Virus record (IMG/VR): IMGVR_UViG_3300031162_001261
Location: 1 to 23,846 of that record
Source of the DNA: a virus
Direction: 5' to 3' (one strand)
Length of the DNA stretch: 23,846 nt
The notes beneath the pieces were generated by a model. It did not search any database, had not been told where the DNA came from, and worked only from the letters and a program-made list of their open reading frames with translations. The stretch's first letter is position 1, and each line of letters opens with the position of its first letter. Both the position numbers and the translations under genes were made by a program. Below are positions 8,001-23,846 of the stretch, one piece after another.

Positions 8001-8432
8001 TACAAGATGATCAGTGACAACATGATATTAAATGCTGTGAGCTTCAAGCCACTGTTTGGTAGCAAAGCCGCAAAGGAATTACAGGGAAAGATTAAGGTCA
8101 TTAGATATTCAGACACCGTGACATCAACCAGTGAGATTAAATCGCGTGTGGTCGAGGCACTGAATGAATATTTTACCATTTCCAATTGGGACTTCGGAGA
8201 CATATTCTACTTCTCTGAATTAAGTGCATACCTACACGAACAGTTAGGTGACATAGTCTCATCGGTAGTGTTGGTACCTAATGATCCAGAGAAGAGTTTC
8301 GGCGATCTTTATGAGATCAGGTCGGCACCAAATGAGATATTCGTTAATGCGGCAACGGTCAATGACATTGATGTCGTGACTGCGTTGACACCTAGCGTAT
8401 TAAGAACAGCAACCAACAGCGGAATCATTTAA
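5028..8432 (+). CDS. gp6: Baseplate wedge protein gp6, enlarged
   Basis: Core wedge protein of the T4 baseplate that dimerises to make the inner ring and binds gp25 and gp7. The N-terminus has the family's helical start (DYETLRKSMIDYLRLYYPE, SSEFVALLDLMAFMGQGL, RNDLNTRENFLSTAERRDS, LAELVGYTPKR). The Baseplate_J-like core shows FGDGVFAKQPIGTFRTFIR and RAPSTFYTQNRMVNGEDYNN (about residues 340-435). The C-terminus has YFTISNWDFGDIFYFSEL and SAPNEIFVNAA. At 1134 residues it is far longer than T4 gp6 (660). The extra length lies mainly in the middle and includes a possible calcium loop, DSDGDGVADDPD (about residues 817-828). AGAGAG five bases before the ATG supports this start. The stop overlaps the next start by one base (TAATG), which suggests translational coupling. 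Confidence 0.93.
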   Translation: MAKTTRQTAIFGAEDWRRLYQTFREADLQSYDYETLRKSMIDYLRLYYPETFNDYVESSEFVALLDLMAFMGQGLSFRNDLNTRENFLSTAERRDSVVKLAELVGYTPKRNTNAEGYIKVTSVTTTESVVDYNGFNLSGLQVNWNDATNVDWYEQFTSIMNAAFVSSQRVGRPGNKQEILGVTTDEYEFNVTAGYLPVIPFQSTVDGNSMTFEVVSATSANKTYIYEPAPQTNGQMNVLYRNDKLGYGSSNTGFFFYFKQGSLINQDFTVQERISNRVVDIDLDGVNNNDIWLFEVKDEGRSLTEWSKVDNIYAVGATPSVNNQLRSVFSVKSRGNDQISLVFGDGVFAKQPIGTFRTFIRSSNGLEYVINPDELQDVQISLPYISRNGRNETLTFTLSLQTTITNSKFRENLSEIKTRAPSTFYTQNRMVNGEDYNNFPYTQFTSILKSKAVGRSSIGLSRYLDLLDPTGKYSSTNTFCSDGMLYRNYEDPNFTFTFVDTNDISNVLVNQLEPVLASRAFVHFYHDKFVRPSLTNIDILWQQSTSSTNQSTGYFKNSISNTVPVGTTASNNAKYIAQGSLVKFEPPTGYFFDTNNRLKAGTPSLPNEKLVIWSTVSALTLDGTNFGNGNLSDGTGPVTLNQFVPTGAIPTQVIAKLVTDLPTSIEALMIAQAELYRDFGIGYDNTTATWYVITADNLNKNAAWSTSYAKNTDRLQRDASWLVQFTTDGGTYTVKYRNLNYYFASVQENRFIYDSSDKIFDPRTGKTVNDYVNVLKMNSKPDSNAALTTDLRLDIIGQEVETDGFIDNFKVMVSYADSDGDGVADDPDIFKNVVDPTVNPSTKVVFLEKTTDFDNLERYLPVTSNQINTLYANLAAMELAKTQYLNGQVFYGTTSKKFYKLTVVGTTYTLSESRDYIYRTGRQDIYFQYKHNSSNNKRVDPGITNIIDVFLITSPYYTAYQNWIKDDTNTVTKPAVPTIDELGVAYSTLNQYKMISDNMILNAVSFKPLFGSKAAKELQGKIKVIRYSDTVTSTSEIKSRVVEALNEYFTISNWDFGDIFYFSELSAYLHEQLGDIVSSVVLVPNDPEKSFGDLYEIRSAPNEIFVNAATVNDIDVVTALTPSVLRTATNSGII
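7476..7511 (+). other. Asp-rich DxDGDG loop in gp6
   Basis: Codes for DSDGDGVADDPD inside a beta-rich stretch of gp6. The spacing of Asp and Gly is that of EF-hand-like or thrombospondin type 3-like calcium loops. Calcium binding is inferred, not shown. Confidence 0.45.
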
Positions 8433-11400
8433 TGGCAACCAGAGTGAGGACGGTAGACCTACTACCTGAGATATTTAGAACCGAGACCAACAAAAAGTTC
8501 CTTGCGGCCACGCTGGATCAAATGGTCCAACCTCCAAAGCTCAAGAGGGTACAGGGCTACATAGGAAAACGTTACGGCATCGGTGTTGACCAAACAGACA
8601 AGTATGTCATCGAACCAGACAAGGAAAGGGCAGACTACCAATTAGAACCCACGGTTGTCTACAAGACGGCAGACACACAGAAGACCAAGGATCTATTGAC
8701 CTATCCGGGACTGATAGATGCCCTAGATGTCAATGATGCCATCACCAATAGACATGACAGATTATTCTCAAGTGACTATTACTCATGGGATCCATTAGTA
8801 GACTATGACAAGTTCGTTAATTTTGGACAATATTATTGGTTAAGTTCCGGCCCTGATCCGGTAGATGTGCAGGCAACACCGGTTGCCTTTACTGATGACT
8901 TCACTGTGACCAGGGCCAGCAAGGGGTATGAGCTGAGTGGAGTATCGGGAACCAACCCTACACTGACATTGGCCAGGGGCGGTAACTACACATTCAACGT
9001 CACACAAACAGGCAATCCCTTCTGGATCCAGAGCAACGCAGGCACCAGCGGGGTAATCCCCGGACAAGAAAATGTGTCAAGTCGTGAGGTATTCGGAGTT
9101 ACGAATAATGGCGACGACAATGGTACAGTGACATTTAATGCACCGCTGGCAGATGCACAGAGCTTCTATTACGGGTTGACAGATCTAGGCACAGTTGACC
9201 TAGCGACCTCACTAAAGTTTGACGAGATCAACAATCAATTTGTTGATGTCTTCCTTGCATCCACAGACGGCATAGATCAAATTAGAGATCTAAACGGAAG
9301 GACAGTGATATTTCTCAACAGGAACACGCAGAGTGATCCTGCAAACAGTGGGTGGAGATACACTGATAGGTTCGACACCGATGGTGTTAACTTTGACACT
9401 GCCACTTTTGATACAGAGACAGAAATAACCAATCAAGACCTTAGATACTCGGTATGGCAGATACAATATGTCACTGACGTAAGTAGCACACGACCATACA
9501 TGAAGTTGATACGTGTGCTGGATGCACCCAAGCTCAACAAGATAGAGGTAGAATACGGAACAGTATCAGCATCAAGATCTTATTATAGGAACGCAGAGGG
9601 TTTCTGGGAATTGATCCCACCATTGACAGCGGTTAAGGACACATTATACTACCAGGATGGCACAGACAGCACCAAGTTTGGTGTTATAAAACTCGTGGAT
9701 GAAACCACCAAGGACCTATTATTCGTTACAGATGACATCGTGGGCAAGAAGACATACACGGCACCCAACGGCGTCGTATTCTCAAATGGAATGAAGGTCA
9801 AGTTCCGTGGTAGCACCCAGCCCGCAACATATCAGGATGGTGAATATTACATCGAGGGAGTGGGCAATGCTATACAACTATTACCCACCAGTGATTATAG
9901 GACGCCAGAGAAATACACCAAGTCAGAGACACAACCATTTGACATATATGGTTATGATAGCGTTCCTTTTGATGAGAGTCTAAATGCCCCCACTGAGCTA
10001 GATTACTTTACGATTAACAAGGCAAGCCCGGACAGGAACGCATGGAGCCGAAGCAATAGATGGACGCACATTGACGTTATCAACAAGACTGCAGAATATA
10101 ACAAGACAACAGCCCTGTTAAATCAAGACAAGCGGGCCAAACGACCAATCCTTGAATTCAAGGCCGGGCTAAGACTGTTTGATTATGGAACGAACTCGCT
10201 GGGTCCTGTGAACATTATGGACTCCAGTGAAACAGACGCACTGTCAAATGTCAATGGCAAGACAGGATACAGCGTGGACGGTTATTCACTGGCCACTGGC
10301 ACAAGGATAATATTCACCAAGGATACGGATCCTGAGGTGAGGAACAAGATATATCAAGTTGAATTAATTGACGAGGATGGTAGTAATGCCACTGCCAGAA
10401 TAATCAATCTCACAAAAGTGAACGACGTGGTCACTGACGATGTCGTCTATCAGTTGAGTGGAGCCAAGGGACAGGGCAAGACCTGGCGCTATGATGGAAC
10501 AGCATGGCAGGAGACACAACAGAAGACATCAATTAACCAGGCACCATTGTTTGACGTGTTTGATAAGAACGGGCGTGGTTTCAGTGATAGAACATATTAC
10601 CCATCAACTAACTTTACAGGATCCAAATTATTCTCATATGCACCAGGATCAGGTGCTGTTGACAAGGAACTTGGTATCAGGCTAAAATATCAGACCATTA
10701 ACAATGTTGGAGATATCGTATTTGACAATAATCTTGAAAAAGATACCTTCATATACACCTCTGACTCTGTGTCAACTACATTAAAGGTCAACACGGGTTT
10801 CGTACGCAATTACTCGGGTAGGACAACATTTACCAGGGAGATAGGTTGGAAGAAACACGTCAACAAATCAACACAGTATCAATCATTGGAGTTTACCTAT
10901 ACGGGTGTTCCATTGGTTGCAGACATACCTGCCAGAGAGACCGAAGACATCCCGGTAGTGGTCTATGTTGATAATGTGTTCCAGGAAACATCTAGATATT
11001 CATACACCGTGTCTACCACACAGACTACCATAACATTTGGTAGTGGGTATGCTCCCAAGAAGGGTGCGAACATCACCATAAGAATACAGAGCGACAAGGT
11101 CAGCCAATTTGGACACTATGAGGTGCCGCCCAACCTGGCAAACAACGCACCCAATGGTTCCTTCACTGACATCACACTGGGTACAGTCCGTAATCACTAT
11201 ATTGATCTAGCACAGAATCTAATAGATCTGTCAGGTAAGGTATTTGGAGCAAACAATTCTAGAGACCTGGGAGACATAGTACCTTACGGTGGGTTGATAG
11301 TGCAACAGGGAAGTCCGTTACATTTAGCCGCAACGTTCATCAAAGACAGCAACATCAATTTCTTCAATGCGTTGGACTACTCGTCACGTGAATATGAAAA

Positions 11401-14400
11401 ATACAAGGGAAAACTCTTAGACGCACTTGCCAAGAACGCCTTCCAAGGAACTGTGGCCGAGCAGTTAGATGAGGCACTGTCATTCGTTAACAATGGCAGA
11501 CAAAATTCTGACCCATTCTACTGGTCAGACATGATACCATGTGGCCAGGTGTTCACAGAAACCAAATACAACATAACTGCCATTGACGATAACATATTTG
11601 ACCTGTCACAGACGTATGATTTCACCAAGGCAAACTATCTTGGACTGGTGGTCCATGTCAATGACATTCAGTTGATCAAGGATACTGACTTCACTGTCAC
11701 TACCGGTGCACCAAGGCTAACTATATCTACTACACTGAACACCGGAGATGTCGTTAAGATCAGAGAATACACGAATACCGCAGGTAGTTTCATTCCATCT
11801 ACCCCTACTAAGCTAGGGTTGTATAACAAATACCGACCAGAAAAGATAACAGACAACAGTTATGTGGAATCACAAGATGTCATCATAGGTCACGACGGTA
11901 GCAAGACCATAGCATTTGGTGATAATAGGGACGACATACTGCTCGAATTTGAGAAACGCATATTCAATAACATCAAGTGGACCGGAGATGTCCCGTTATG
12001 CCTAGAGGATGTTGCGCCGGGCAAGTTCAGAAAGACAGATTACGCCAATGCGGAAGTGACAACCTTATTGAACAGAGATTTCTTATCCTGGGTTGCCTGG
12101 AACAGGCTGGATTACAAGTTGCAGGATTATGTGGCAGACAACAAGAAAACATGGAACTACGCACAGTCACAGGATAGGATAGATGGAGAACTGTTACCGG
12201 GCAATCAGAGAGGTATATATTTAAAATATTATGACACCGACACCCCGCACGTCACTCCATGGGAGATGATTGGTTTCGCTGTGAAACCAATTTGGTGGAA
12301 TGTCAAGTATGGTGCCGCTCCATATACATCAGGTAACAAGGTATTGTGGGATGACCTGGAGAACGGTCGTGTCTGGAACGGGGTGGACACCTATACTGTC
12401 GTGGCCAAATGGAAACGGCCAGGCCTCAGCAAGATCATTCCAGTAGATGACGAGGGAAATCTAAAGACAGCATTTGATAGCATAGTCGGCAATTATGACA
12501 GCCTCAGTTTTGAAAAATCTTGGGTCAGTGGTGACAGCGGCCCGGTCGAGACAGCATGGAGGAGATCAAGCAGTTTCCCGTTCGCAGTCATCAGGATGCT
12601 GGCTCAGAGCAAACCTGCTGAATTCTTCGCACTAAATGCCGACAGGGACCTGTACAAGTACGACAGTGAATTGGCTCAATATGTCTATGATGGCAGATCA
12701 AGGATCAGGGCCGAGGACATAGTGTTATACGGAGCTGGTACAGCCAAGCACTCCTACATCAACTGGTGTGTTGAATACAGTAAGAAACAGGGCGTATCGG
12801 CGATTGCAGGCATCAAGGACGTATTAGAAAACATCAACATACAGTTAACTTATAGATTAGCAAGTTTCAGTGACAAGGAATATCTCAAGATATACACTGA
12901 GAAGTCATCACCAAACTCAAACAATGCCAGCCTGCTACTTCCTGATGAGAGTTTCGAGGTGTTCCTATACAGCAACGAGGTATTTGATACCGCCGAGTAT
13001 TCATCAGTCATAATACAAAAAACAGCAGACGGATGGGCAGTGAGCGGTAACAGCCAACTTGATCCGTATTTTAAAATATACAACAGCATCGTGAACGGAA
13101 ACTATCAGATGATCAAGGTGGGAAGTCGTTCAGTCAGGGTCAGCAAGGATTTCAATACCACGACCACACGTGTTCCATATGGTTATGTGTTTACCAGCAC
13201 CAGCGCCGCGGCAGACTTCCTAATAAGTTACGGAAGATACCTTGAGGACAAGGGCTTTGTCTTTGAAGACTTGGATAACCACTATCTACTGGACTGGAGC
13301 CAAATGATCAGAGAGTTCCTACATTGGAGCCAACAGGGATGGGCGGATGGTAGCATAATTAATCTCAATCCCAATGCCAATAGGCTCAAGATTACAAGAG
13401 CACAGAGCATAGTCGCACCCATAACGGGAGAAACGGCAGATGACTTCGTGCTAAATCAAAATCTGAAAGCCATACCTAACAATAAATTAAACTTCAACAG
13501 GATGGACAACACCTTCGAGGTAGAGAGCCTGGATGAGGATGCTATATCATATCTCAAGGCTGATTTCACGAGTTACGAGCATGTGTTGGTCTTTGATAAC
13601 AAGTCCATCTTCAATGACTTGCTATATGACCCAACAACAGGGTCAAGACAACAGAGATTGAGGATATCGGGTTACAAGACAGGCGAGTGGAACGGCCAGG
13701 TTGACGCACAGGGCTTCATATTCAACATTGACAACGTCAAGGAATGGACCAACAATAAGGAATACAGCAAGGGAGACATTGTCCTCTTCAAGAACGGATA
13801 CTATACCGCGGCAAAATCAGTATATCCAAAAGAAAAATTTGATTACAGTGATTGGGTAGAGACAGAATACAACACCGTCAAGAAAGGATTACTACCTAAC
13901 CTTAGCCTCAAGACAGATCAACTCAGGGATTACTATGATATCAACGTTGCCAACTTGGAAAAGGATGGTGACAAGTTGGGCTTCAACATCATTGGTTTCA
14001 ATGAGAGGGATTATCTATCCAGCATGGGACTCGACGACATCAGTCAGATCAACGTATTCCGCAGTTTCATTGGTAGCAAGGGAACAAACCGTGCGGCCAA
14101 CCTATTCAAGACATCCAGGTTACAGAAAGAGATCGCCGACTATGACATCTATGAGAATTGGGCAGTCAAGCAGGGACAATATGGTGCGGAAGGCAACAGG
14201 GCATACGTTGAACTGAGATTGGATGAGAGCCTAATGGATGCCAATCCATCAACATTCAAGATAACTAACAGTGGAAGTGATCAAACAGTTGACCAAAGCG
14301 TCAGTCTGGAAAACCTATACAAACAGAGTTACAAGATATCAACGACACCGATACTGCCACAGCGGTACAGCGTTGCGTCAGAGCTCAACTTGCCCACGGC

Positions 14401-17400
14401 CGGTTACGTCAACGTTGATGATATTAACATACAATTATTTGACATACTTGATTTAAAAGCATTAATTCCTTACATGAATAAAATAGGTGAGGGCACTACC
14501 ATTTGGGTGGCCAAGGACAATAGATGGGGTTGGAATGTCTATAGAAGCAGTCTGGTACTACCTACACTATCTAAGATAACCGACAACCTAGATGGCACCT
14601 CCACGTTACTGTTTGACAGTAGTCATGGTCTGGCAAAGGATGACATCATAATGATCAAGTGGGGAACGGATGAAGGGACACTGGTAGACGGTGGTTTCAG
14701 GGTGCTAGTGGCACAGAGCCTAAACAAAATATCGATAGGAGTGAGCCTCCCAGACGACATCACATCAGTCACACTAGAAGCACTAACATACAAATTAAAT
14801 TCTGTGAGAGTGGCACAGGGAAGTGACATACTTGGCCTACCATTTGCCAACGAGATAGATCCAGGTAACAGGGTATGGATTGACAACAACGGCAATGACA
14901 GATGGCAGGTGCTCGAGAAGATAGATCCATTTAAACAGGAAAGCAGTCTAGAGCCGTCAAGAAACTTCATCAATGGATTAACAGATCAGACCATGGTCAA
15001 TATCGACTTTGGTGCATCAGTGGCACAGAATGCAGAAAGTTTGACAGCATTCGTGGGTGCTCCTAGTTACAACAGTAGCAAGGGAGGACTTTTCACATAC
15101 GTCAAGACTGCCAACGACACCATGGCACAGAACATCATATTGACAGGTACTGGTACCACAGCATTGGACAACTACGGCAATGACGTGGCATGTGCAAACG
15201 AGATGTGGTCCATAGCAGGTGCCTCAACATCTAACAGCGGTGAAGGTTACGCCTACATACTCAAGCAACTGAATTCAAACTTGATATCAGAACATCAGTT
15301 ATTGGTCAATCCAAGCGATGCCAATGATGAAGCCAAATTCGGTCATGCGGTGGCGATGTCAGATGACGGCAGGTGGGCATACGTGTCGGCACCTGGTAAG
15401 GATTCCGTGTACGTGTTCCAGCGTGTGGACAGGCAGTTACAGAGATTTACCGGAACCGGTAACGATGACAGTAACGCACAATACGATCTCAGCGACTACA
15501 TCATAGCAAATGAGCCAGATCAAATAGCAGTCGTAGTCAACAACGTTGAGCTAGGTGTCGCTGATTACACGTTCACATCCAGCGTATCAAGCACGGGCAT
15601 ATTGACACTCAACACAGGTTTAACACTAGATGACAAGATTGCAGTGACCAGGAGAGAAACACTTACACTCAACGGTGATGGGTCAACAAGAGTTTTTGAC
15701 ATCACAGGTCTTTACACGGCAGACGGCGAGTACTCGTTGACAGTGACTGTCAATGGCGTGTTACAGAGGTTGAACATTGACTATGACTACGCACATGACT
15801 CATCTAATGTTTTCGCATTCGCGACTGCTCCAGCAGATGGCGCAGTGATACAGGTTAGATCGAGTGACTACTATGAATACGTCACAGCCATCGTGGGCAC
15901 CAAGGGCGAGGAATTTGGTTATAGCCTGGCAACCACCACAGACGGTCGTCAGGTGGCTATCGGAGCAAGGACAGCCAACAAGACATACATATATGACAGA
16001 GATGTCGAGAGACAGGTGGTGACAGATGCCACTGACAAGACCTACGTGTCAGACAAGACTCCGATTGGAAGGGCAGTTGTCTCAGTAAATGGAAAAATAT
16101 TACAGGATTCAGCGAGGTACATCGGTGGAACATACACCGTGGCAGGTAAGACAGTCACAATGGCAACGGCACCTGGCTTGGGTGACTTTGTCGAGATAGA
16201 GACAAACAATTTCATGTTGGTTGACACCATGGAGATGACGAACCCATACGCTGGCGCCGAGTTTGGACACAAGGTGACCATATGTCCTACTAACTGTTCT
16301 GTATATGTGAGTGCACCCGAGGACGGTACTGTGTTACCTAGTGCAGGTAGCGTACAGCGTTCAGTTAACCAATCAAGATTTTACGGAACCATAACAGGTA
16401 CTGTTTCAAATCCGACGGTCACGATAGGTGAGAAGATAAGAATCAATAACGTTGTGGTGACATTTACGGGAACTACGTTAGATCAAGTGGTCACAGACAT
16501 CAACAACGCAACGATACCAAATGTCAAGGCAGTGAACTCCAATGGCAAACTGACCATATCATTGACGAACATCAAAGCCGGTGCGGTCGCCAACAAACTA
16601 TACGTATATCCTGCGGGCAATGATAATGGTGCGTTGACAGACCTAGGGCTCGACATATTCAAATATCTACAGACCATTACATCACCATATCCATCAGATA
16701 AGGCACGCTTTGGTGAGAGCCTGTCTGTGAGTGATGACGCATTTACTGTGGTAGTGAGCTCAAGCAAGGGAGCCAGCAACTTACCAACAACATTTGACAA
16801 CAAAAAGACAAAACTGGATGGTGGTAGTACAAGGATCAGAGACGTGAGGATACAGAGCGGTAGCGTGTACACCTTTGACTACTTGTCATCAGCCAGTGAC
16901 AGCATATCAAACCCAGGCAAGTTGGTGTTTGGCCAACAGGTGGTGGACAACACCGTGATAGAATTGGCAGAATTTGGCAAGGCTGTTGACTACAAGGGCG
17001 GAAGGTTATTTATAACGAGCCCCGGGCATGTGAGTGGTGACGGATCGAGTGAAGTAGGACGAGTGGTGATATACAACAATGCGAAAAAAGAATTTGCCTG
17101 GAAGACAATCAGAGAGGAAGGTCAGGTCGTCAACGTTGAATTATTAAATAGAGCATTCATATATGATAAGAATACATTAGAGAGCAAGGTTGATGTTGAC
17201 TTCTTTGATCCGTTACAGGGTAAACTGTTAGGTGCCGTAAGAGAAAACATAGACTACCTAACTCCTGTTGATCCTGCAGGATATGATGTGGGTAGTGTCA
17301 ATAACTATGGACAGACATGGCGAGATGAACATGTTGGTGAGATATGGTGGAACACAACAAATACCAGATACATTAATCATTATATAGGAGATCCAGAATA

Positions 17401-20400
17401 CAGGGCTAAGAGATGGGGACAACTGTTCACAGGCTCTAGCGTGGATGTCTATCAATGGATAGAAAGTACCCAAGCACCTGCGGACTATACAGGTACCGGC
17501 ACAGTGTACAGCACTACCTCTTATGCTACTAAAACACGAGTTGGAGTGACAGGTTTTGTAGAAACGGTTTATTACTATTGGGTCAAGAACATTCCATCAG
17601 TTTCGCCCGGTAAAACATTAAGTCCATCAGTGATGGCACAGTACATCGAAGATCCGAGGGCAAGTGGTATCGCCTACCTAGCACCAGTTGATGCTAACAC
17701 GGGTGCTCTATACAACGTGGGACAATACCTATCTGCCAAGGACAGCATATTACATGTTGAGTATGACAGAAAACAGACGGACAACAACGTACACGTTGAA
17801 TACGAATTAATTAAAGTAGGTGATCCTGACCAGTTCCTAAATGCCCAACTCTATAGAAAATTACTTGATAGTTTCGCAGGAGTCGACACCGCAGGCAACA
17901 AGGTACCCGATGCCACCTTGTCGGAAGCCAATCAATATGGTATTGAGTTCAGGCCAAGACAGAGCATGTTCAAGGATAGATACACTGCTCTCAAAAACTA
18001 CTTGACTAGAGCGAATAGGAAATTAGCATTATATCCTATCAGTGAGAGCAAGTCGTTTAACTTATTGAACAGCAAGGATAACGAACCGGCGGCAACTGCA
18101 TACAATAAGCGACTATTGACATACGAAGAACTGACTTATCAGGATCTATCATTGGTATCGGCAGGTTACAAGTACCTAGTGGCTAACGACAGCACACAGA
18201 ACAATCTATGGACCATGTATGAGGTGCAGAGTAACAAAACTCTGTTGTTAACACGTGTACAGAATTATAAGACATCTAACTACTGGTCATATAAGGATTG
18301 GTATGCCACTGGTTACTCGGCAAATTCAAAACCCACGTACGAAGTGTCAACATATTCAAGATTGTCAACTGTTAACAGCAAGACGGCAGTGGGTGAGATA
18401 GTCAAGGTAACGACAAACAGTGCAGGCAAGTTTGAGCTCTATGAGAAGACCACAACAGGATGGGTCAGGATCGGACTGCAGGACGGCACTATTGAGATTA
18501 ATAAAGATGTCTATGACTATACGGAAGGACGCAATGGGTTTGACGTTGAGGTATTTGATGCACAATACTTTGATGAGGAACCAGTTACCGAAACCAGGCA
18601 GATAATCAAGGCAATCAATGAGGAATTGTTTATCGCTGAGTTGGCAAAAGAACGCATAGATCTCATTAACTTGATATTTGAATACACCAAGAGCGAGCAC
18701 ACCGCGGCTGACTGGTTGGTCAAGACATCATTGATTGATGTCAACCATAACCTCAGAGATCTCAAACCATTCAACATCTATCAGGTTGACAATCAAGACT
18801 TCATTGAGAAATACATCAACGAGATCAAGCCTTATCACGTACAGGTCAAGGAATTCTCACTGACCTATAAGGGAGATGATCTGTTTAGTGGTGACGCCAC
18901 TGACTTTGACTTACCTGCATATTATGATGAGACGCAGGCCAGATTCATTAGTCCTAAATTAGCAACAACAGGAGTTGCCGGGGACTTTACGTCAACTGAC
19001 GCTATATGGAAAACATGGCCATACAATCAATGGATATCAAATTACACGTTGAGCATTGACTCAGTGACTGTGCTCAAGAAAGGATCCGGATACACAGAAG
19101 CCCCAACAGTTACCGTGAGCGGCACTGCCACAACTCCCGCTACAATGGTAGCAAGGGTGAACACAGCTGGTGAGGTGATATCAATAGAAGTAACCAATCC
19201 CGGAATAGGGTACATAACTGCACCAACCATCACATTAAGCGGTGGTAATGGCACAGGAGCCGCGGCAGTGGCCGTGACATCGCCAGGAACCGTGCGTGAC
19301 ATGAAGACAACGTTGCGTTATGACCGGTACGAATACCAATCAGAGATAGTTGATTGGGCGGCAAATACTGCTTACGATCCCGGACAGTTAGTTAGATATA
19401 GAGACAAGGTCTATAAGGCCAAGAATGAGGACGACTCAGCATTGTCTGTAACGGGAGCAACGTTTAACACTGATGATTTTGAGGTAGTTGACCCAGGCAC
19501 ATTGAGCGGTGTTAACAGGACCATGGGATTGTATGCTCCAAAAGTCAACAATACCGGATTGGATCTAGGTCTGTTGGTGTCCGGCACTGACTATCCAGGC
19601 GTACAGGTCAAGGGTGTGTTGTATAATCAGAACACAGGCTATGACAGTGGTAACTATGATATCAACCCATATGATAACCTGGACTTTGGTGAAGAGGGCA
19701 GACCAAGTTATTCTGAATCATTGCTGGATACAAAATACAATCCTGGTGACTATACAGACACATATCTAGGCACACTGACTGCAGACATCAATGTGGATGG
19801 TGGTGAGTACATAGACACATACAGCTCACATTCGCCTGAAGAACTGGTGCCAAGCTCAATATTTGACACTCTCAACATGAAGGTGTTCACACGTCCTGGG
19901 TATGACTATGAGAATGACGGGCACGGACAACCATTTGGTTCATACACATGGAAATATACGGGCTCTTCAGACACAACAACGGTGAGCTGGGATCTGATCG
20001 AGAATCCCTTTGCGGTTCGCGTGTTCAACGTGACGACCGGGTTGACCTTACGTTTCGAATACTTTGCTCCATACGAGGGCACGGTTAATTACTCAGCAAA
20101 CTGGCTTAACAAGACAGTGACACTGACAGGTTCTGGCGTGTCAGTGGGAGACATATTACGTGTCGAGTCATACGGCATAGGTGGTGGAGATCAATTATGG
20201 GTGGACAACTACTCGGTCAGCGATCTATTGATAGATGACTCAACAGATGGTCTATATGTTGACATACCAGTTGCGTTCGAGGACATATATGAGGCAATGA
20301 TCAAGGTCAACGGTTACAGAGTCACTAATTACACGTTCGCAGAGCTGAATGAGACAACGACGCGGGTCACGTTTGGCACGCAGGACGTGGACGGTAATGG

Positions 20401-21835
20401 CACACCGGACCTGGAAGTAAAATATGATAATAGAGATCCATTGGCGGCAGGTGACTATATCGGCATGGCAGTGTTTGGGTATGATGAGAATGAGAAATCA
20501 ACTATTCCAGGTTATGTCACACATGACGAGCATCTGGTACACTCATCCAGCCACCCCACATCACAGATAATGTATGGCAACGGCACACGCAAGGAATTCT
20601 CGCTGATCAATGACATACAGGGAACCAACGCATTCACGGCAGTGGTGGAGATTGACGGTAGGCGCCTCGTCCCGGCAGAGGGAATAGAATACACCGGTGA
20701 CGGATCCAGTGAGGGACCTTTCTACCTGAACTTGACTAATTGGTCAGTAACAGAAGACCTATTCCAGACAGTGATAGCAGACAGTGACGTACATTGTTTC
20801 GTTGATGGAGTAGAGCAAAAGTTGTACGAGGACTTCACTGTCAGTGCTGTAGACGCCAGCACAGTCAGATATGTGGTGTTTACCACAGCACCCGCGGCAG
20901 GCGCAGACGTCAAGATATTCGTTGAGACATCAGCGGAGTACAAGATAAATTATTCCGGAGTTCCTGTGAGCCCAGGATTGAATTCGATAACATTTAATAC
21001 GGCTCCCATCGATGGTGCCCGCATAATGGTGACCACGGACAATAATACGTCTGAGCTTGACATCATTAATAGATGTTATAGGGGACCGACATCAACAGGC
21101 TCAACCATAACGACTGGATTTGACCAAGTTGGTTTCGATGCCGATGGCGAACCATTTGACAAGACTGTGGGAATCGTGGTTGACACCAGTAACTTTGATC
21201 TCGGTAGAAGCATAACCAAGCCTGATAAGTTACGTGTCACGGTGAATGGACTACGCAAATATCTCGGTAGGGATTGGCAGATGAACTCAACAGATAGCAC
21301 TGAGTTGCAGTTCACATCAACAGCGATCAGCGACAGTGATGTCGTGGTGGTGACGCTACAGACAGAGAACGAGGCACCTGATAACTTGAATTTTGCTATA
21401 TTCAAGGACATGCGAGATAACAATGCTGTCTATAGAATCAAGGCCAGCGAGCAGACAACACTTACACAGGCATTGTCAGCAACTGCGGATACCATATATG
21501 TCAGAGATGCCAGCAAGTTAGCGAAACCAAATCTCAATGAGGGAACGTTTGGTATAGTCATCATCGATGGAGAACGCATAACATATCGCAATAGAGATGT
21601 TACCAACAATACATTAAGCGGACTGCGTAGGGGTACCGCTGGCACGGGTGCGGCGGCACATGCGGCCGGTAGCATTGCCTATGACTACTCCGTATCGACG
21701 TATCTGGATTACGGTTATAACAAGACATGGTATGACCTACCAACTGTTGATGATGGTAGCACAGTTACACAGGGCAAGGCATTACAGAACACAAACACTG
21801 TACCGGCCAAGTTCTTAAAGGGTGAAAATTCATAG
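8432..21835 (+). CDS. Giant mosaic virion structural protein (baseplate/fibre), 4467 residues
   Basis: A single frame of 13.4 kb directly after gp6, in the place of gp7 in T4, but showing no similarity to T4 gp7 that I can see. The N-terminus (VDLLPEIFRTETNKKFLAAT, YDKFVNFGQYYWLSSGPDP, residues 1-145) resembles what I remember as the anchor of large structural proteins in marine T4-like and jumbo phages. Further signatures of that kind recur: PYGYVFTSTSAAADFLISYG (about 13174), RWGQLFTGSSVDVYQWIES (about 17413), NEIKPYHVQVKEF (about 18816), GGEYIDTYSSHSPEELVP (about 19801). Inserted modules are listed separately. No signal peptide or membrane segment is evident. It likely starts at the wedge and extends outward with receptor- or glycan-binding parts. 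It overlaps the gp6 stop by one base and the next frame's GTG by one base, implying coupled translation. The structural role is secure; its exact place in the virion is inferred. Confidence 0.85.
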   Translation: MATRVRTVDLLPEIFRTETNKKFLAATLDQMVQPPKLKRVQGYIGKRYGIGVDQTDKYVIEPDKERADYQLEPTVVYKTADTQKTKDLLTYPGLIDALDVNDAITNRHDRLFSSDYYSWDPLVDYDKFVNFGQYYWLSSGPDPVDVQATPVAFTDDFTVTRASKGYELSGVSGTNPTLTLARGGNYTFNVTQTGNPFWIQSNAGTSGVIPGQENVSSREVFGVTNNGDDNGTVTFNAPLADAQSFYYGLTDLGTVDLATSLKFDEINNQFVDVFLASTDGIDQIRDLNGRTVIFLNRNTQSDPANSGWRYTDRFDTDGVNFDTATFDTETEITNQDLRYSVWQIQYVTDVSSTRPYMKLIRVLDAPKLNKIEVEYGTVSASRSYYRNAEGFWELIPPLTAVKDTLYYQDGTDSTKFGVIKLVDETTKDLLFVTDDIVGKKTYTAPNGVVFSNGMKVKFRGSTQPATYQDGEYYIEGVGNAIQLLPTSDYRTPEKYTKSETQPFDIYGYDSVPFDESLNAPTELDYFTINKASPDRNAWSRSNRWTHIDVINKTAEYNKTTALLNQDKRAKRPILEFKAGLRLFDYGTNSLGPVNIMDSSETDALSNVNGKTGYSVDGYSLATGTRIIFTKDTDPEVRNKIYQVELIDEDGSNATARIINLTKVNDVVTDDVVYQLSGAKGQGKTWRYDGTAWQETQQKTSINQAPLFDVFDKNGRGFSDRTYYPSTNFTGSKLFSYAPGSGAVDKELGIRLKYQTINNVGDIVFDNNLEKDTFIYTSDSVSTTLKVNTGFVRNYSGRTTFTREIGWKKHVNKSTQYQSLEFTYTGVPLVADIPARETEDIPVVVYVDNVFQETSRYSYTVSTTQTTITFGSGYAPKKGANITIRIQSDKVSQFGHYEVPPNLANNAPNGSFTDITLGTVRNHYIDLAQNLIDLSGKVFGANNSRDLGDIVPYGGLIVQQGSPLHLAATFIKDSNINFFNALDYSSREYEKYKGKLLDALAKNAFQGTVAEQLDEALSFVNNGRQNSDPFYWSDMIPCGQVFTETKYNITAIDDNIFDLSQTYDFTKANYLGLVVHVNDIQLIKDTDFTVTTGAPRLTISTTLNTGDVVKIREYTNTAGSFIPSTPTKLGLYNKYRPEKITDNSYVESQDVIIGHDGSKTIAFGDNRDDILLEFEKRIFNNIKWTGDVPLCLEDVAPGKFRKTDYANAEVTTLLNRDFLSWVAWNRLDYKLQDYVADNKKTWNYAQSQDRIDGELLPGNQRGIYLKYYDTDTPHVTPWEMIGFAVKPIWWNVKYGAAPYTSGNKVLWDDLENGRVWNGVDTYTVVAKWKRPGLSKIIPVDDEGNLKTAFDSIVGNYDSLSFEKSWVSGDSGPVETAWRRSSSFPFAVIRMLAQSKPAEFFALNADRDLYKYDSELAQYVYDGRSRIRAEDIVLYGAGTAKHSYINWCVEYSKKQGVSAIAGIKDVLENINIQLTYRLASFSDKEYLKIYTEKSSPNSNNASLLLPDESFEVFLYSNEVFDTAEYSSVIIQKTADGWAVSGNSQLDPYFKIYNSIVNGNYQMIKVGSRSVRVSKDFNTTTTRVPYGYVFTSTSAAADFLISYGRYLEDKGFVFEDLDNHYLLDWSQMIREFLHWSQQGWADGSIINLNPNANRLKITRAQSIVAPITGETADDFVLNQNLKAIPNNKLNFNRMDNTFEVESLDEDAISYLKADFTSYEHVLVFDNKSIFNDLLYDPTTGSRQQRLRISGYKTGEWNGQVDAQGFIFNIDNVKEWTNNKEYSKGDIVLFKNGYYTAAKSVYPKEKFDYSDWVETEYNTVKKGLLPNLSLKTDQLRDYYDINVANLEKDGDKLGFNIIGFNERDYLSSMGLDDISQINVFRSFIGSKGTNRAANLFKTSRLQKEIADYDIYENWAVKQGQYGAEGNRAYVELRLDESLMDANPSTFKITNSGSDQTVDQSVSLENLYKQSYKISTTPILPQRYSVASELNLPTAGYVNVDDINIQLFDILDLKALIPYMNKIGEGTTIWVAKDNRWGWNVYRSSLVLPTLSKITDNLDGTSTLLFDSSHGLAKDDIIMIKWGTDEGTLVDGGFRVLVAQSLNKISIGVSLPDDITSVTLEALTYKLNSVRVAQGSDILGLPFANEIDPGNRVWIDNNGNDRWQVLEKIDPFKQESSLEPSRNFINGLTDQTMVNIDFGASVAQNAESLTAFVGAPSYNSSKGGLFTYVKTANDTMAQNIILTGTGTTALDNYGNDVACANEMWSIAGASTSNSGEGYAYILKQLNSNLISEHQLLVNPSDANDEAKFGHAVAMSDDGRWAYVSAPGKDSVYVFQRVDRQLQRFTGTGNDDSNAQYDLSDYIIANEPDQIAVVVNNVELGVADYTFTSSVSSTGILTLNTGLTLDDKIAVTRRETLTLNGDGSTRVFDITGLYTADGEYSLTVTVNGVLQRLNIDYDYAHDSSNVFAFATAPADGAVIQVRSSDYYEYVTAIVGTKGEEFGYSLATTTDGRQVAIGARTANKTYIYDRDVERQVVTDATDKTYVSDKTPIGRAVVSVNGKILQDSARYIGGTYTVAGKTVTMATAPGLGDFVEIETNNFMLVDTMEMTNPYAGAEFGHKVTICPTNCSVYVSAPEDGTVLPSAGSVQRSVNQSRFYGTITGTVSNPTVTIGEKIRINNVVVTFTGTTLDQVVTDINNATIPNVKAVNSNGKLTISLTNIKAGAVANKLYVYPAGNDNGALTDLGLDIFKYLQTITSPYPSDKARFGESLSVSDDAFTVVVSSSKGASNLPTTFDNKKTKLDGGSTRIRDVRIQSGSVYTFDYLSSASDSISNPGKLVFGQQVVDNTVIELAEFGKAVDYKGGRLFITSPGHVSGDGSSEVGRVVIYNNAKKEFAWKTIREEGQVVNVELLNRAFIYDKNTLESKVDVDFFDPLQGKLLGAVRENIDYLTPVDPAGYDVGSVNNYGQTWRDEHVGEIWWNTTNTRYINHYIGDPEYRAKRWGQLFTGSSVDVYQWIESTQAPADYTGTGTVYSTTSYATKTRVGVTGFVETVYYYWVKNIPSVSPGKTLSPSVMAQYIEDPRASGIAYLAPVDANTGALYNVGQYLSAKDSILHVEYDRKQTDNNVHVEYELIKVGDPDQFLNAQLYRKLLDSFAGVDTAGNKVPDATLSEANQYGIEFRPRQSMFKDRYTALKNYLTRANRKLALYPISESKSFNLLNSKDNEPAATAYNKRLLTYEELTYQDLSLVSAGYKYLVANDSTQNNLWTMYEVQSNKTLLLTRVQNYKTSNYWSYKDWYATGYSANSKPTYEVSTYSRLSTVNSKTAVGEIVKVTTNSAGKFELYEKTTTGWVRIGLQDGTIEINKDVYDYTEGRNGFDVEVFDAQYFDEEPVTETRQIIKAINEELFIAELAKERIDLINLIFEYTKSEHTAADWLVKTSLIDVNHNLRDLKPFNIYQVDNQDFIEKYINEIKPYHVQVKEFSLTYKGDDLFSGDATDFDLPAYYDETQARFISPKLATTGVAGDFTSTDAIWKTWPYNQWISNYTLSIDSVTVLKKGSGYTEAPTVTVSGTATTPATMVARVNTAGEVISIEVTNPGIGYITAPTITLSGGNGTGAAAVAVTSPGTVRDMKTTLRYDRYEYQSEIVDWAANTAYDPGQLVRYRDKVYKAKNEDDSALSVTGATFNTDDFEVVDPGTLSGVNRTMGLYAPKVNNTGLDLGLLVSGTDYPGVQVKGVLYNQNTGYDSGNYDINPYDNLDFGEEGRPSYSESLLDTKYNPGDYTDTYLGTLTADINVDGGEYIDTYSSHSPEELVPSSIFDTLNMKVFTRPGYDYENDGHGQPFGSYTWKYTGSSDTTTVSWDLIENPFAVRVFNVTTGLTLRFEYFAPYEGTVNYSANWLNKTVTLTGSGVSVGDILRVESYGIGGGDQLWVDNYSVSDLLIDDSTDGLYVDIPVAFEDIYEAMIKVNGYRVTNYTFAELNETTTRVTFGTQDVDGNGTPDLEVKYDNRDPLAAGDYIGMAVFGYDENEKSTIPGYVTHDEHLVHSSSHPTSQIMYGNGTRKEFSLINDIQGTNAFTAVVEIDGRRLVPAEGIEYTGDGSSEGPFYLNLTNWSVTEDLFQTVIADSDVHCFVDGVEQKLYEDFTVSAVDASTVRYVVFTTAPAAGADVKIFVETSAEYKINYSGVPVSPGLNSITFNTAPIDGARIMVTTDNNTSELDIINRCYRGPTSTGSTITTGFDQVGFDADGEPFDKTVGIVVDTSNFDLGRSITKPDKLRVTVNGLRKYLGRDWQMNSTDSTELQFTSTAISDSDVVVVTLQTENEAPDNLNFAIFKDMRDNNAVYRIKASEQTTLTQALSATADTIYVRDASKLAKPNLNEGTFGIVIIDGERITYRNRDVTNNTLSGLRRGTAGTGAAAHAAGSIAYDYSVSTYLDYGYNKTWYDLPTVDDGSTVTQGKALQNTNTVPAKFLKGENS
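8930..9180 (+). other. Cupredoxin-like module in the giant protein
   Basis: About residues 183-250: GGNYTFNVTQTGNPFWIQ, then VFGVTNNGDDNGTVTFNAP and FYYGLTD. This follows a beta-sandwich pattern I recall from marine phage and bacterial proteins, usually read as GHPFWI ... GVTNNG ... YYCQYHSSM. In this copy the His, Cys and Met that would hold copper are not seen (GNPFWI, FYYGLTD), so it would be a structural or binding version. The assignment is from memory of the pattern. Confidence 0.4.
10942..11094 (+). repeat. VNG-type fibre module 1
   Basis: Residues about 838-888 of the giant protein: VVVYVDNVFQETSRYSY, a beta turn, then FGSGYAPKKGANITIRIQS. This is the common phage fibre module with the order V-x-V-N-G-x-x-Q, x-Y-x-Y, AP-x-x-G-x-x-I-x-V. 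Related copies occur at about 11635, 15518, 15661, 16067, 20248, 20778 and 21227. Confidence 0.55.
11635..11775 (+). repeat. VNG-type fibre module 2
   Basis: GLVVHVNDIQLIKDTDFTV followed by LNTGDVVKIREYT. Same module order as the copy at about 10942, with ND in place of NG. Confidence 0.5.
13739..13870 (+). other. CBM5/12-like carbohydrate-binding motif 1
   Basis: EWTNNKEYSKGDIVLFKN followed by GYYTAAKSV and YSDWVE, about residues 1770-1813. This follows the chitin-binding type 3 / CBM5/12 pattern W...Y..GD.V...G..Y.A......W. A role in glycan contact is inferred. Confidence 0.5.
15518..15658 (+). repeat. VNG-type module inserted between propeller blades 3 and 4 (first copy)
   Basis: QIAVVVNNVELGVADYTF then LTLDDKIAVTRRE. 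A fibre module placed in the loop between blades 3 and 4, directly followed by a second one. Confidence 0.5.
15661..15885 (+). repeat. VNG-type module inserted between propeller blades 3 and 4 (second copy)
   Basis: LNGDGSTRVFDI, then SLTVTVNGVLQRLNIDYDY and FATAPADGAVIQVRS. The clearest copy of the module in the window, with both the VNGVLQ turn and the APADG turn. Confidence 0.6.
16067..16215 (+). repeat. VNG-type module inserted between propeller blades 4 and 5
   Basis: GRAVVSVNGKILQDSARY then VTMATAPGLGDFVEIETNN. A single module accounts for most of the longer spacing between blades 4 and 5. Confidence 0.55.
16420..16665 (+). other. Flagellin-IN-like insert between propeller blades 5 and 6
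   Basis: IGEKIRINNVVVTFTGTTL, DQVVTDINNA, NVKAVNSNGKLTISLT, ending LTDLGLDI. The order of IN-x-V, T-G-T-T-L-x-x-V-V-x-x-I-N, N-G-K-L-T-I and a closing LGL resembles the flagellin hook IN motif of bacterial flagellar proteins. Homology is uncertain; the fold may simply be similar. Confidence 0.4.
19050..19298 (+). repeat. Tandem GSGYT-type beta repeats in the giant protein
   Basis: Two copies in a row, about residues 3540-3622: VTVLKKGSGYTEAPTVTVSG and IEVTNPGIGYITAPTITLSG, each followed by an Ala/Thr-rich strand. This repeat is widespread in phage and bacterial surface proteins; its binding partner is unknown. Confidence 0.65.
19344..19493 (+). other. CBM5/12-like carbohydrate-binding motif 2
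   Basis: DWAANTAYDPGQLVRYRDKV, then YKAKNEDDS and a closing FEVVD. Same W...Y..G..V.Y....Y.A order as the motif at about 13739, directly after the GSGYT repeats. The final Trp is not seen. Confidence 0.5.
20248..20430 (+). repeat. VNG-type module with Asp-rich loop
   Basis: YEAMIKVNGYRVTNYTFAEL, then DVDGNGTPDLEVKYD. A fibre module whose second turn is replaced by a DVDGNG loop that looks able to bind calcium. Confidence 0.5.
20778..20946 (+). repeat. VNG-type fibre module near the C-terminus
   Basis: VHCFVDGVEQKLYEDFTV then FTTAPAAGADVKIFVETS. Both turns of the module are present, with DG in place of NG. Confidence 0.55.
21227..21370 (+). repeat. VNG-type fibre module, last copy
   Basis: KLRVTVNGLRKYLGRDWQM then LQFTSTAISDSDVVVVTLQ. 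The VNG turn is clear; the AP turn is replaced by AISDSD. Confidence 0.5.
21457..21715 (+). other. C-terminal 'IDGERITY ... RRGTAGTGAAAHAAGS' module
   Basis: About residues 4343-4428 of the giant protein: IIDGERITYRNRD followed by LSGLRRGTAGTGAAAHAAGS. This pair of motifs is frequent in tail fibre proteins of marine phages, as I recall it, and marks the end of the giant protein. Function unknown. Confidence 0.55.
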
Positions 21836-22559: not shown

Positions 22560-23846
22560 ATGGCTTATACAATTAATCAAACAGATGGAACCATATTTGC
22601 CACGGTGGCAGATGGAACCATCAACACCACCAGCTCATTGACGCTGGTCGGTAAGAACTACGCCGGTTACGGTGAGTTCCTGAACGAGAACGTTCTCAAA
22701 TTACTTGAGAGTGGTGCTAACACGACAGCACCAGGTGCACCACTGACAGGCCAATTATGGTTTGACAAGACTGCGGGCGTGCTAAAAGTTTATAACGGCA
22801 CAATATTTAAGAACCTAGGTTCAGCCACGAGCTCCAGCACTGCACCAACATCAGTTGTGTCAGGCGATTTATGGTTTGACTCAACAAACAAACAGTTGAA
22901 AGTATATGATGGTGCCAGTTGGATCTTGGTAGGTCCTTCATTCACTGCCGGCACGGGAACATCAGGTGCCATAGTTGACACCGTACAGGACAACGTGGCA
23001 GTTGATCACGTCGTCGTAAAATTATTCGTTGAAGACAGCATAGTGGCAACTGTATCCAAAGACGCAACGTTCACTCCAGGAGCGGCCATCACTGGTTTTG
23101 CAACGATCGGTCCAGGTGTACAGTTAAGCTCATCAGTTTCAAACGCGGTGTTTAAAGGTTCAGCTACGAACGCACAAACATTAGATAACTTAGATTCAAC
23201 AGACTTCCTAAGTGCCATCGCAAATGACACGACATCAGGCACACTGGGCGTATTAAACGACACAGGACTAGCAGTTGGTGTGGACAGTGACTTCAGGGTA
23301 AGCGTATCCGGCTCAGACGTTACTATTGCTAACCAAACACTAGACGGTGATGTTATCCTTAGAGTCAATGACGGAGGCGTCGCTAAGAACGTTGCTGTGG
23401 TTGACGGAGCAACGGCTTCGGTATTGCCCGGTGCAAACAACACGTATGACATAGGTGCGTCCGGAAATGTCTGGGCAAACATATATGCCACGAACTTTAA
23501 CGGTACAGCATCTGCCGCTGAATATTCTGACTTGGCTGAACGCTTTGAGACAGATACAGCATATCCGGCAGGTACCGTGGTTGAGTTAGGCGGTGTTAAA
23601 GAAATCACTATGGCGCAAGATGAATTAAGTGACGCAGTTTTCGGTGTTGTATCAACGAAGGCGGCTTACTTGATGAATTCAGGTGCGGGTAGTAATGAGA
23701 CACACCCACCGATCGCTATGAACGGTCGAGTTCCTGTGAGAGTAATCGGTACAGTGAATAAGGGTGATAGACTAGTATCAGCAGGTAACGGGTTGGCTAG
23801 AGCGGCTTCGAAAGATGAACCCACAGCATTCAACGTGATCGGCAGG
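22560..23846 (+). CDS. Tail fibre/adhesin-like structural protein, 3' partial
   Basis: Open to the window edge (429 codons, no stop). The N-terminus YTINQTDGTIFATVADGTIN then LVGKNYAGYGEFLNENVLKL is a start I recall from marine myovirus fibre or structural proteins, probably the virion attachment part. Two related segments follow, GQLWFDKTAGVLKVYNG (about 22750) and GDLWFDSTNKQLKVYDG (about 22864). Next comes the fibre motif AQTLDNLDSTDFL (about 23177). Near the edge are NNTYDIGASGNVWANIYATN and AEYSDLAERFETDTAYPAG, then VFGVVSTKAAYLMNSGAG and GRVPVRVIGTVNKGDRLVS. That block resembles the C-terminal regions of phage fibres and preneck appendages, some of which cleave themselves. ATG 22560 is supported by GGAG eight bases upstream. 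It is likely an exposed part, perhaps receptor-binding. The cut-off end hides any distal domain. Confidence 0.72.
   Translation, partial: MAYTINQTDGTIFATVADGTINTTSSLTLVGKNYAGYGEFLNENVLKLLESGANTTAPGAPLTGQLWFDKTAGVLKVYNGTIFKNLGSATSSSTAPTSVVSGDLWFDSTNKQLKVYDGASWILVGPSFTAGTGTSGAIVDTVQDNVAVDHVVVKLFVEDSIVATVSKDATFTPGAAITGFATIGPGVQLSSSVSNAVFKGSATNAQTLDNLDSTDFLSAIANDTTSGTLGVLNDTGLAVGVDSDFRVSVSGSDVTIANQTLDGDVILRVNDGGVAKNVAVVDGATASVLPGANNTYDIGASGNVWANIYATNFNGTASAAEYSDLAERFETDTAYPAGTVVELGGVKEITMAQDELSDAVFGVVSTKAAYLMNSGAGSNETHPPIAMNGRVPVRVIGTVNKGDRLVSAGNGLARAASKDEPTAFNVIGR
22749..22936 (+). repeat. Two LWFD...VY.G repeats in the fibre-like protein
   Basis: GQLWFDKTAGVLKVYNGTIF and GDLWFDSTNKQLKVYDGASW, about 38 codons apart. 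Such repeats are common in fibre shafts and collars and probably form small beta units. Confidence 0.6.

Follow-up and report, generated by a model that had tools for sequence, protein, structure and literature searches.

Can an integrin-like β-propeller act as a carrier of exchangeable fiber modules in a phage tail? The question is raised by a giant protein in which an earlier note had read seven FG-GAP-type repeats split by fiber modules, and had proposed an unusual host-contact head with exchange-tolerant loops. The window, which is the entire 23,846-base virus record that was analyzed and which probably is a fragment, carries genes for a virion protein, a spike similar to gp5, gp25, a wedge protein similar to gp6, the giant, a 221-aa protein and a Peptidase_G2 fiber, arranged in this sequence. 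The giant is a putative virion protein of 4467 aa (8432..21835, + strand, as for all of its features below; phrog_10938) that follows homologues of gp5, gp25 and gp6 and so occupies the position of T4 gene 7, with a gene order that matches T4 genes 5, 6, 7 ... 10. The cluster is paralleled in PA5oct (gp5-gp25-gp6-giant-221 aa-gp10-like fiber), where the protein downstream of the giant is annotated as gp10-like and the record of gp355, the homologue of the giant, carries an ESI-MS/MS annotation, i.e., of detection in the virion. The fiber gene of the window (22560-23846) encodes a Peptidase_G2 autoproteolytic chaperone domain and runs off the window end; the N-terminus of its product shares ~40% identity with the PA5oct protein that bears the T4 gp10-like annotation.

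The giant is a conserved protein consisting of a core (window aa ~436-2040) and a domain that follows the propeller (2890-3500). Although the gene order is shared with T4, no sequence or profile similarity to gp7 was found: hhalign comparisons of four profiles of giant segments with the single T4 gp7 sequence each gave a probability of <1%. A model of core residues 880-1950 (pLDDT 77.9) produced PDB matches only to a carbohydrate-binding-module (CBM)-like domain before the propeller and to a VNG-like module; T4 gp7 was absent among the matches listed, which excludes nothing. PDB profile searches with alignments of the core, N-terminal and post-propeller regions returned a chitin-binding domain and noise only. 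The giant therefore is termed a gp7-position protein instead of gp7, as no sequence or profile link to the T4 protein was found and the core fold matched small modules only. The CBM5/12-like (chitin-binding type 3) module lies in the core shortly ahead of the propeller (aa 1767-1814; 13730..13873), and was recognized by fold matches to a Milano baseplate protein and chitin-binding domains (Z 7.1, 1.0 Å, 45 residues) and by a profile match to the chitinase A1 chitin-binding domain (E 0.018).

The repeats in the giant were examined by motif, profile and hidden Markov model (HMM) analyses. The FG/YG motifs start at aa 2193, 2248, 2303, 2495, 2611, 2760 and 2848 (DNA positions 15008, 15173, 15338, 15914, 16262, 16709 and 16973), with YG in place of FG in the second blade. 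Consecutive motifs are separated by 55, 55, 192, 116, 149 and 88 residues, which agrees exactly with the spacings described earlier for the first three blades and for the steps after blades 3, 4, and 5. The 88-residue step between blades 6 and 7 results from a long hairpin within blade 6 that also is present in the bare propellers of relatives. The Pfam family FG-GAP_2 (PF14312) matched the isolated window region with an E-value of 1.1e-11, above its cut-off and with the best stretch in blade 3, as well as 54 of 55 non-redundant relatives (best E 2.6e-19). In a leave-one-out test, each blade was searched for with an HMM trained exclusively on the remaining six blades as they occur in distant relatives. 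All seven window blades were detected with 11.2-36.7 bits compared to ≤8.7 bits in shuffled sequences, and none of 1000 shuffles reached the score of any of the seven blades. Motifs, FG-GAP_2 and leave-one-out HMMs together substantiate the seven repeats.

The blade HMM, the leave-one-out test and an AlphaFold2 model each located the seven blades. Blade 1 spans aa 2178-2240 (14963..15151) and blade 2, with the YG motif, aa 2229-2283 (15116..15280). Strands 1-3 of blade 3, which FG-GAP_2 also marks, occupy aa 2281-2347 (15272..15472), with strand 4 following the inserts at aa 2480-2488. Blade 4 (aa 2476-2538; 15857..16045) has its fourth strand after the third VNG module, and blade 5 (aa 2592-2658; 16205..16405) after a flagellin-IN-like insert. 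Blade 6, with the long hairpin between strands 2 and 3, extends over aa 2740-2827 (16649..16912) and blade 7 over aa 2829-2899 (16916..17128). A strand modeled ahead of blade 1 (aa 2168-2173; 14933..14950) probably is the outer ring-closing strand, as in integrin alpha.

The AlphaFold2 model, for which 55 aligned sequences were used, most of them sharing 35-40% identity with the window, was confident (pLDDT 88.9, pTM 0.90) and its strands were assignable as four per blade. In a Foldseek search of the PDB, integrin alpha chains ranked first with E-values down to 1.6e-10. VIA-align superimposed model residues 16-744 on the integrin alphaM headpiece with a Z of 38.4 and an rmsd of 2.7 Å over 351 residues, the alignment starting at model residue 16, which corresponds to integrin residue 1. 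Headpieces of alphaX, alpha4, alpha5, and alphaV, which likewise are closed rings of seven FG-GAP blades, aligned over their full length in the same range as alphaM (Z 34-38, rmsd 2.6-2.9 Å), even though the window propeller is only 17-19% identical to integrin alpha. A sequence-profile search of the PDB, which is independent of the model, yielded integrin alpha in eight of eight matches that were weak (E 0.04-0.09) but in register on the FG-GAP motifs. As the best PDB matches of the model are integrin-alpha headpieces, the ring is predicted to close, and the assignment of residues 2168-2899 as a closed seven-blade integrin-alpha-like FG-GAP propeller is supported by the model. Thus, the predicted structure, its comparison with known folds and the natural insert-free relatives described below uphold the closed propeller that had been proposed, the structure prediction of residues ~2180-2900 having been suggested as a check. 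The region instead might be a string of beta-sandwich fiber modules in which FG-like motifs occur by chance, a reading with which the poor conservation of the blade 2 motif and the abundance of VNG sandwiches around the blades are in keeping. However, it is contradicted by the AlphaFold2 model, Foldseek, VIA-align, the leave-one-out HMMs and the bare propellers, and is regarded as extremely improbable.

The likeness to integrins is confined to the propeller. The giant possesses neither thigh, calf and membrane domains nor a beta partner, and its flanks are unrelated; hence, it is not classed as an integrin. DxDxDG-type calcium loops, which are typical of integrins but are not needed for FG-GAP_2, were found neither in the window propeller nor in 11 of 12 bare propellers that were scanned. 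Calcium binding by the window blades was dismissed on the basis of this motif scan.

The window propeller carries three VNG modules and one flagellin-IN-like segment. VNG module 1 (aa 2341-2410; 15452..15661) and VNG module 2 (aa 2412-2480; 15665..15871) lie in the strand 3-4 loop of blade 3, VNG module 3 (aa 2528-2594; 16013..16213) in that of blade 4, and the flagellin-IN-like segment (aa 2649-2742; 16376..16657) in that of blade 5. Module 2 was detected both by a module HMM and by the Pfam Phage_T7_tail N-terminal domain (PF03906; 29.5 bits, cut-off 25.2; E 6.8e-7). Modules 1 and 3 were recognized only by the module HMM, with strands in the AlphaFold2 model additionally marking module 1. 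The flagellin-IN-like segment was assigned with a module HMM; Flagellin_IN (PF07196) matched seven of 55 relatives (best E 0.0011), the window segment itself giving no match to this family. These identities agree with the two VNG modules, single VNG module and flagellin-IN-like segment noted initially, with the Pfam evidence for the last coming from relatives only. The location of the inserts differs in one respect from that first description. The three sites at blades 3, 4 and 5 are correct, but when the model strands are compared with bare relatives, each insert falls inside a blade, after strand 3 (which has the G-x-V-Y-x-Y pattern) and before strand 4, and not between blades. In the AlphaFold2 model, strands 368-380 and 437-452 run continuously from blade 4 into VNG module 3. 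By established propeller topology, loops 1-2 and 3-4 project from the same face. Because all insertions in the window use strand 3-4 loops, its four modules would on this topology be expected to cluster on one side of three adjacent blades.

Comparison of flanks revealed that the propeller is a unit inserted between the conserved core (~436-2040) and the conserved domain (2890-3500), of which aa 2893-3153 (17108..17890) form the right border of the insertion site. Bare seven-blade propellers of ~460-500 residues, without inserts of the window type, occupy the same place in the same giant in L018/L100, L122, L124, L147, L172, L173 and L180 among others, with the seven blades identified by HMM in several of them and by inspection in L018 and L180. 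These relatives are a natural equivalent of the window region with its inserts removed, a removal that the earlier note had recommended, and they still are seven-blade propellers. The giants of Atu_ph07, PA5oct, RaK2, PBECO4, and SCTP-2 (phrog_10938) share the core, gene position and insertion-site flanks with the window, but the site is devoid of FG-GAP blades. Its length is ~120 residues in RaK2, Munch, PBECO4 and Vibrio phage 2.275.O, ~320 in PA5oct, ~400 in SCTP-2 and ~1500 in Atu_ph07 and Phosso; the family HMM found no FG-GAP blade at the site in any of eight isolate giants. A tblastn search for isolates with the same propeller in this giant retrieved none. Five or more blades were detected in 160 of 162 environmental giants, a sample that was gathered via the flanking domain and a bare relative and is biased toward relatives of the seeds. 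The propeller thus is dispensable for this baseplate type, as eight isolate phages have this giant but lack the propeller.

The alternative contents of the insertion site are diverse. The ~400 aa in Salicola phage SCTP-2 (L009:17745-19067) read like LamG/jellyroll, with no family assigned by Pfam, and ~1500 aa of unassigned sequence are present in Atu_ph07 and Phosso (L006:11729-16411, L007:16956-21638). The phage giant, in several cases with seven blades, also appears in marine metagenome-assembled genome records labeled bacterial or archaeal (L183-L189) that probably are mis-binned virus contigs. Assignment of a host from such genome-contig matches was rejected because the bins span very different taxa and the contigs are likely to be mis-binned viruses.

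The loads in the propeller loops were compared among relatives with module HMMs. The VNG and flagellin-IN-like sites are the same in nearly all 54 decorated relatives, which mostly are 35-40% identical, and the same three sites bear different loads. A GTGY module is found between the two VNG modules or, in L087, within the hairpin that joins strands 2 and 3 of blade 4. The flagellin-IN-like segment may itself harbor a nested module of CBM5/12-like or VNG type, and CBM_X2 also occupies the propeller region in relatives. In L155 and L171, CBM5/12 modules that exceed the Pfam cut-off are located in loops 2-3 and 3-4. Helical repeats that by eye are DUF4214-like, with no Pfam match, are present in the propellers of L111, L113 and L118; eight such units lie in the loops of L118 (4791-8036), with a gap of 476 residues between two blade matches. 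On a quick tree of the core of 52 giants, the presence of GTGY changed at least 10 times, the nested CBM at least nine times and the nested VNG once, counts that are approximate because HMMs can miss divergent modules. The close pairs L066/L069 and L074/L084 differ in the load of a single loop, the nested CBM. The content of the inserts therefore does change among related phages, and the module HMMs, tree counts and sister pairs support the tolerance of the loops to exchange.

Such turnover could be neutral, with loops collecting mobile tail modules of little effect and the propeller being a spacer. High module turnover, the nesting of modules within modules and the eight isolates without a propeller fit this explanation. 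Nevertheless, it is considered improbable: the inserts and the ring appear to be maintained, as the VNG and flagellin-IN-like sites are constant and seven blades persist across lineages.

The interpretation preferred here, which we judge to be just on the probable side, is that the propeller serves to display exchangeable modules with an adhesive or fiber-docking role. It would form a rigid scaffold at the baseplate rim or tail tip and hold the modules outward, either to contact polysaccharide or other receptors on the surface of the bacterium or to seat fibers. Recombination in the loops would swap modules, allowing lineages to re-tool while leaving the ring undisturbed. A host-contact head is plausible, its virion location being deduced from gene order and from the annotation of PA5oct gp355. 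Direct adhesion is favored because modules of carbohydrate-binding type use the same propeller loops in relatives. Fiber docking is the main rival because VNG has the N-terminal fold of the T7 fiber; VNG modules are docking-type domains that could mean indirect host contact. In its strict form, the propeller and VNG modules would be a hub that seats separately encoded fibers or other baseplate proteins with no host contact, and module exchange would follow fiber exchange. The match of VNG to the T7 tail-fiber N-terminal domain (PF03906) accords with such a hub, as do the match of the VNG-like stretch of the core to domains in podovirus portal-tail structures and the location next but one of the Peptidase_G2 fiber gene with its PA5oct gp10-like N-terminus. 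However, CBM5/12 and CBM_X2 in the same region of relatives fit sugar contact better, and bare propellers exist without any docking module. A hub of this type consequently seems rather unlikely. The predicted propeller, with modules growing from its loops, suggests that this large uncultured phage has in its giant tail protein a re-toolable surface for bacterial contact.

Neither FG-GAP propellers nor propellers in phages are new, and mosaic tail proteins likewise are known. FG-GAP_2 proteins of bacteria, giant viruses and phages share the repeat family and fold of the window propeller, examples being the Atu_ph07 'hemagglutinin' A0A2L0UZX4, cyanophage S-TIM5 H6WG31 and FG-GAP proteins of the mimivirus group. 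These mostly are separate proteins of ~400-1400 aa, whereas the window propeller is embedded in a gp7-position giant and is loaded with tail modules. Propellers also are reported in the adhesion devices of Staphylococcus aureus phage phi11 (Gp45; PMC4901313) and in the K1F endosialidase tailspike (PMC12632334). These belong to other propeller families and contexts. In the literature searched, no text linked the baseplates of jumbo phages to propellers of the FG-GAP or integrin-like type. The combination that is new relative to this literature is an integrin-alpha-like ring in a gp7-position giant, with loop sites that stay fixed while tail modules are exchanged and nested in them, which is frequent among uncultured phages but lacking in the eight related isolates.

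In alphaI integrins, the I domain, a binding domain, is inserted in the propeller. That insertion is between blades 2 and 3, whereas the window inserts are in strand 3-4 loops of blades 3-5. A broader proposal, to which we give somewhat less than even credence, is that the integrin-alpha-like propeller is a standard tail-tip display chassis of many environmental jumbo-type phages whose loops receive, nest and swap VNG, GTGY, flagellin-IN, CBM5/12 and helical repeats. Host contact then would evolve by loop insertion as well as fiber-tip exchange, paralleling the animal integrin I domain. If so, plug-in modules on fixed propeller loops would be a second route of host-range evolution beside fiber-tip exchange, and the integrin-alpha head architecture, with binding modules in the ring, would extend to phage virions. 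That such a design has gone unnoticed would be because five or more blades occur in 160 of 162 sampled environmental giants but none in the eight isolate relatives examined.

At aa 3517-3640 of the giant (window 18980-19351), PHROGs gives the names 'head closure Hc2' and 'baseplate hub and tail lysozyme', both of which were discarded because a repeat module that is shared brings the annotation with it. This segment is a G-x-G-Y-x-x-x-P-x-V repeat module common to many tail proteins, and the labels look like artefacts. In L018 (14755-15648), the gene of a 297-aa protein of collagen-like Gly-x-y repeats, absent from the window, separates the giant from the 221-aa gene. In Sinorhizobium phage Phosso, a similar propeller is located in a different giant gene (gene 108; L181:5001-6317), as though the module were mobile among tail proteins.
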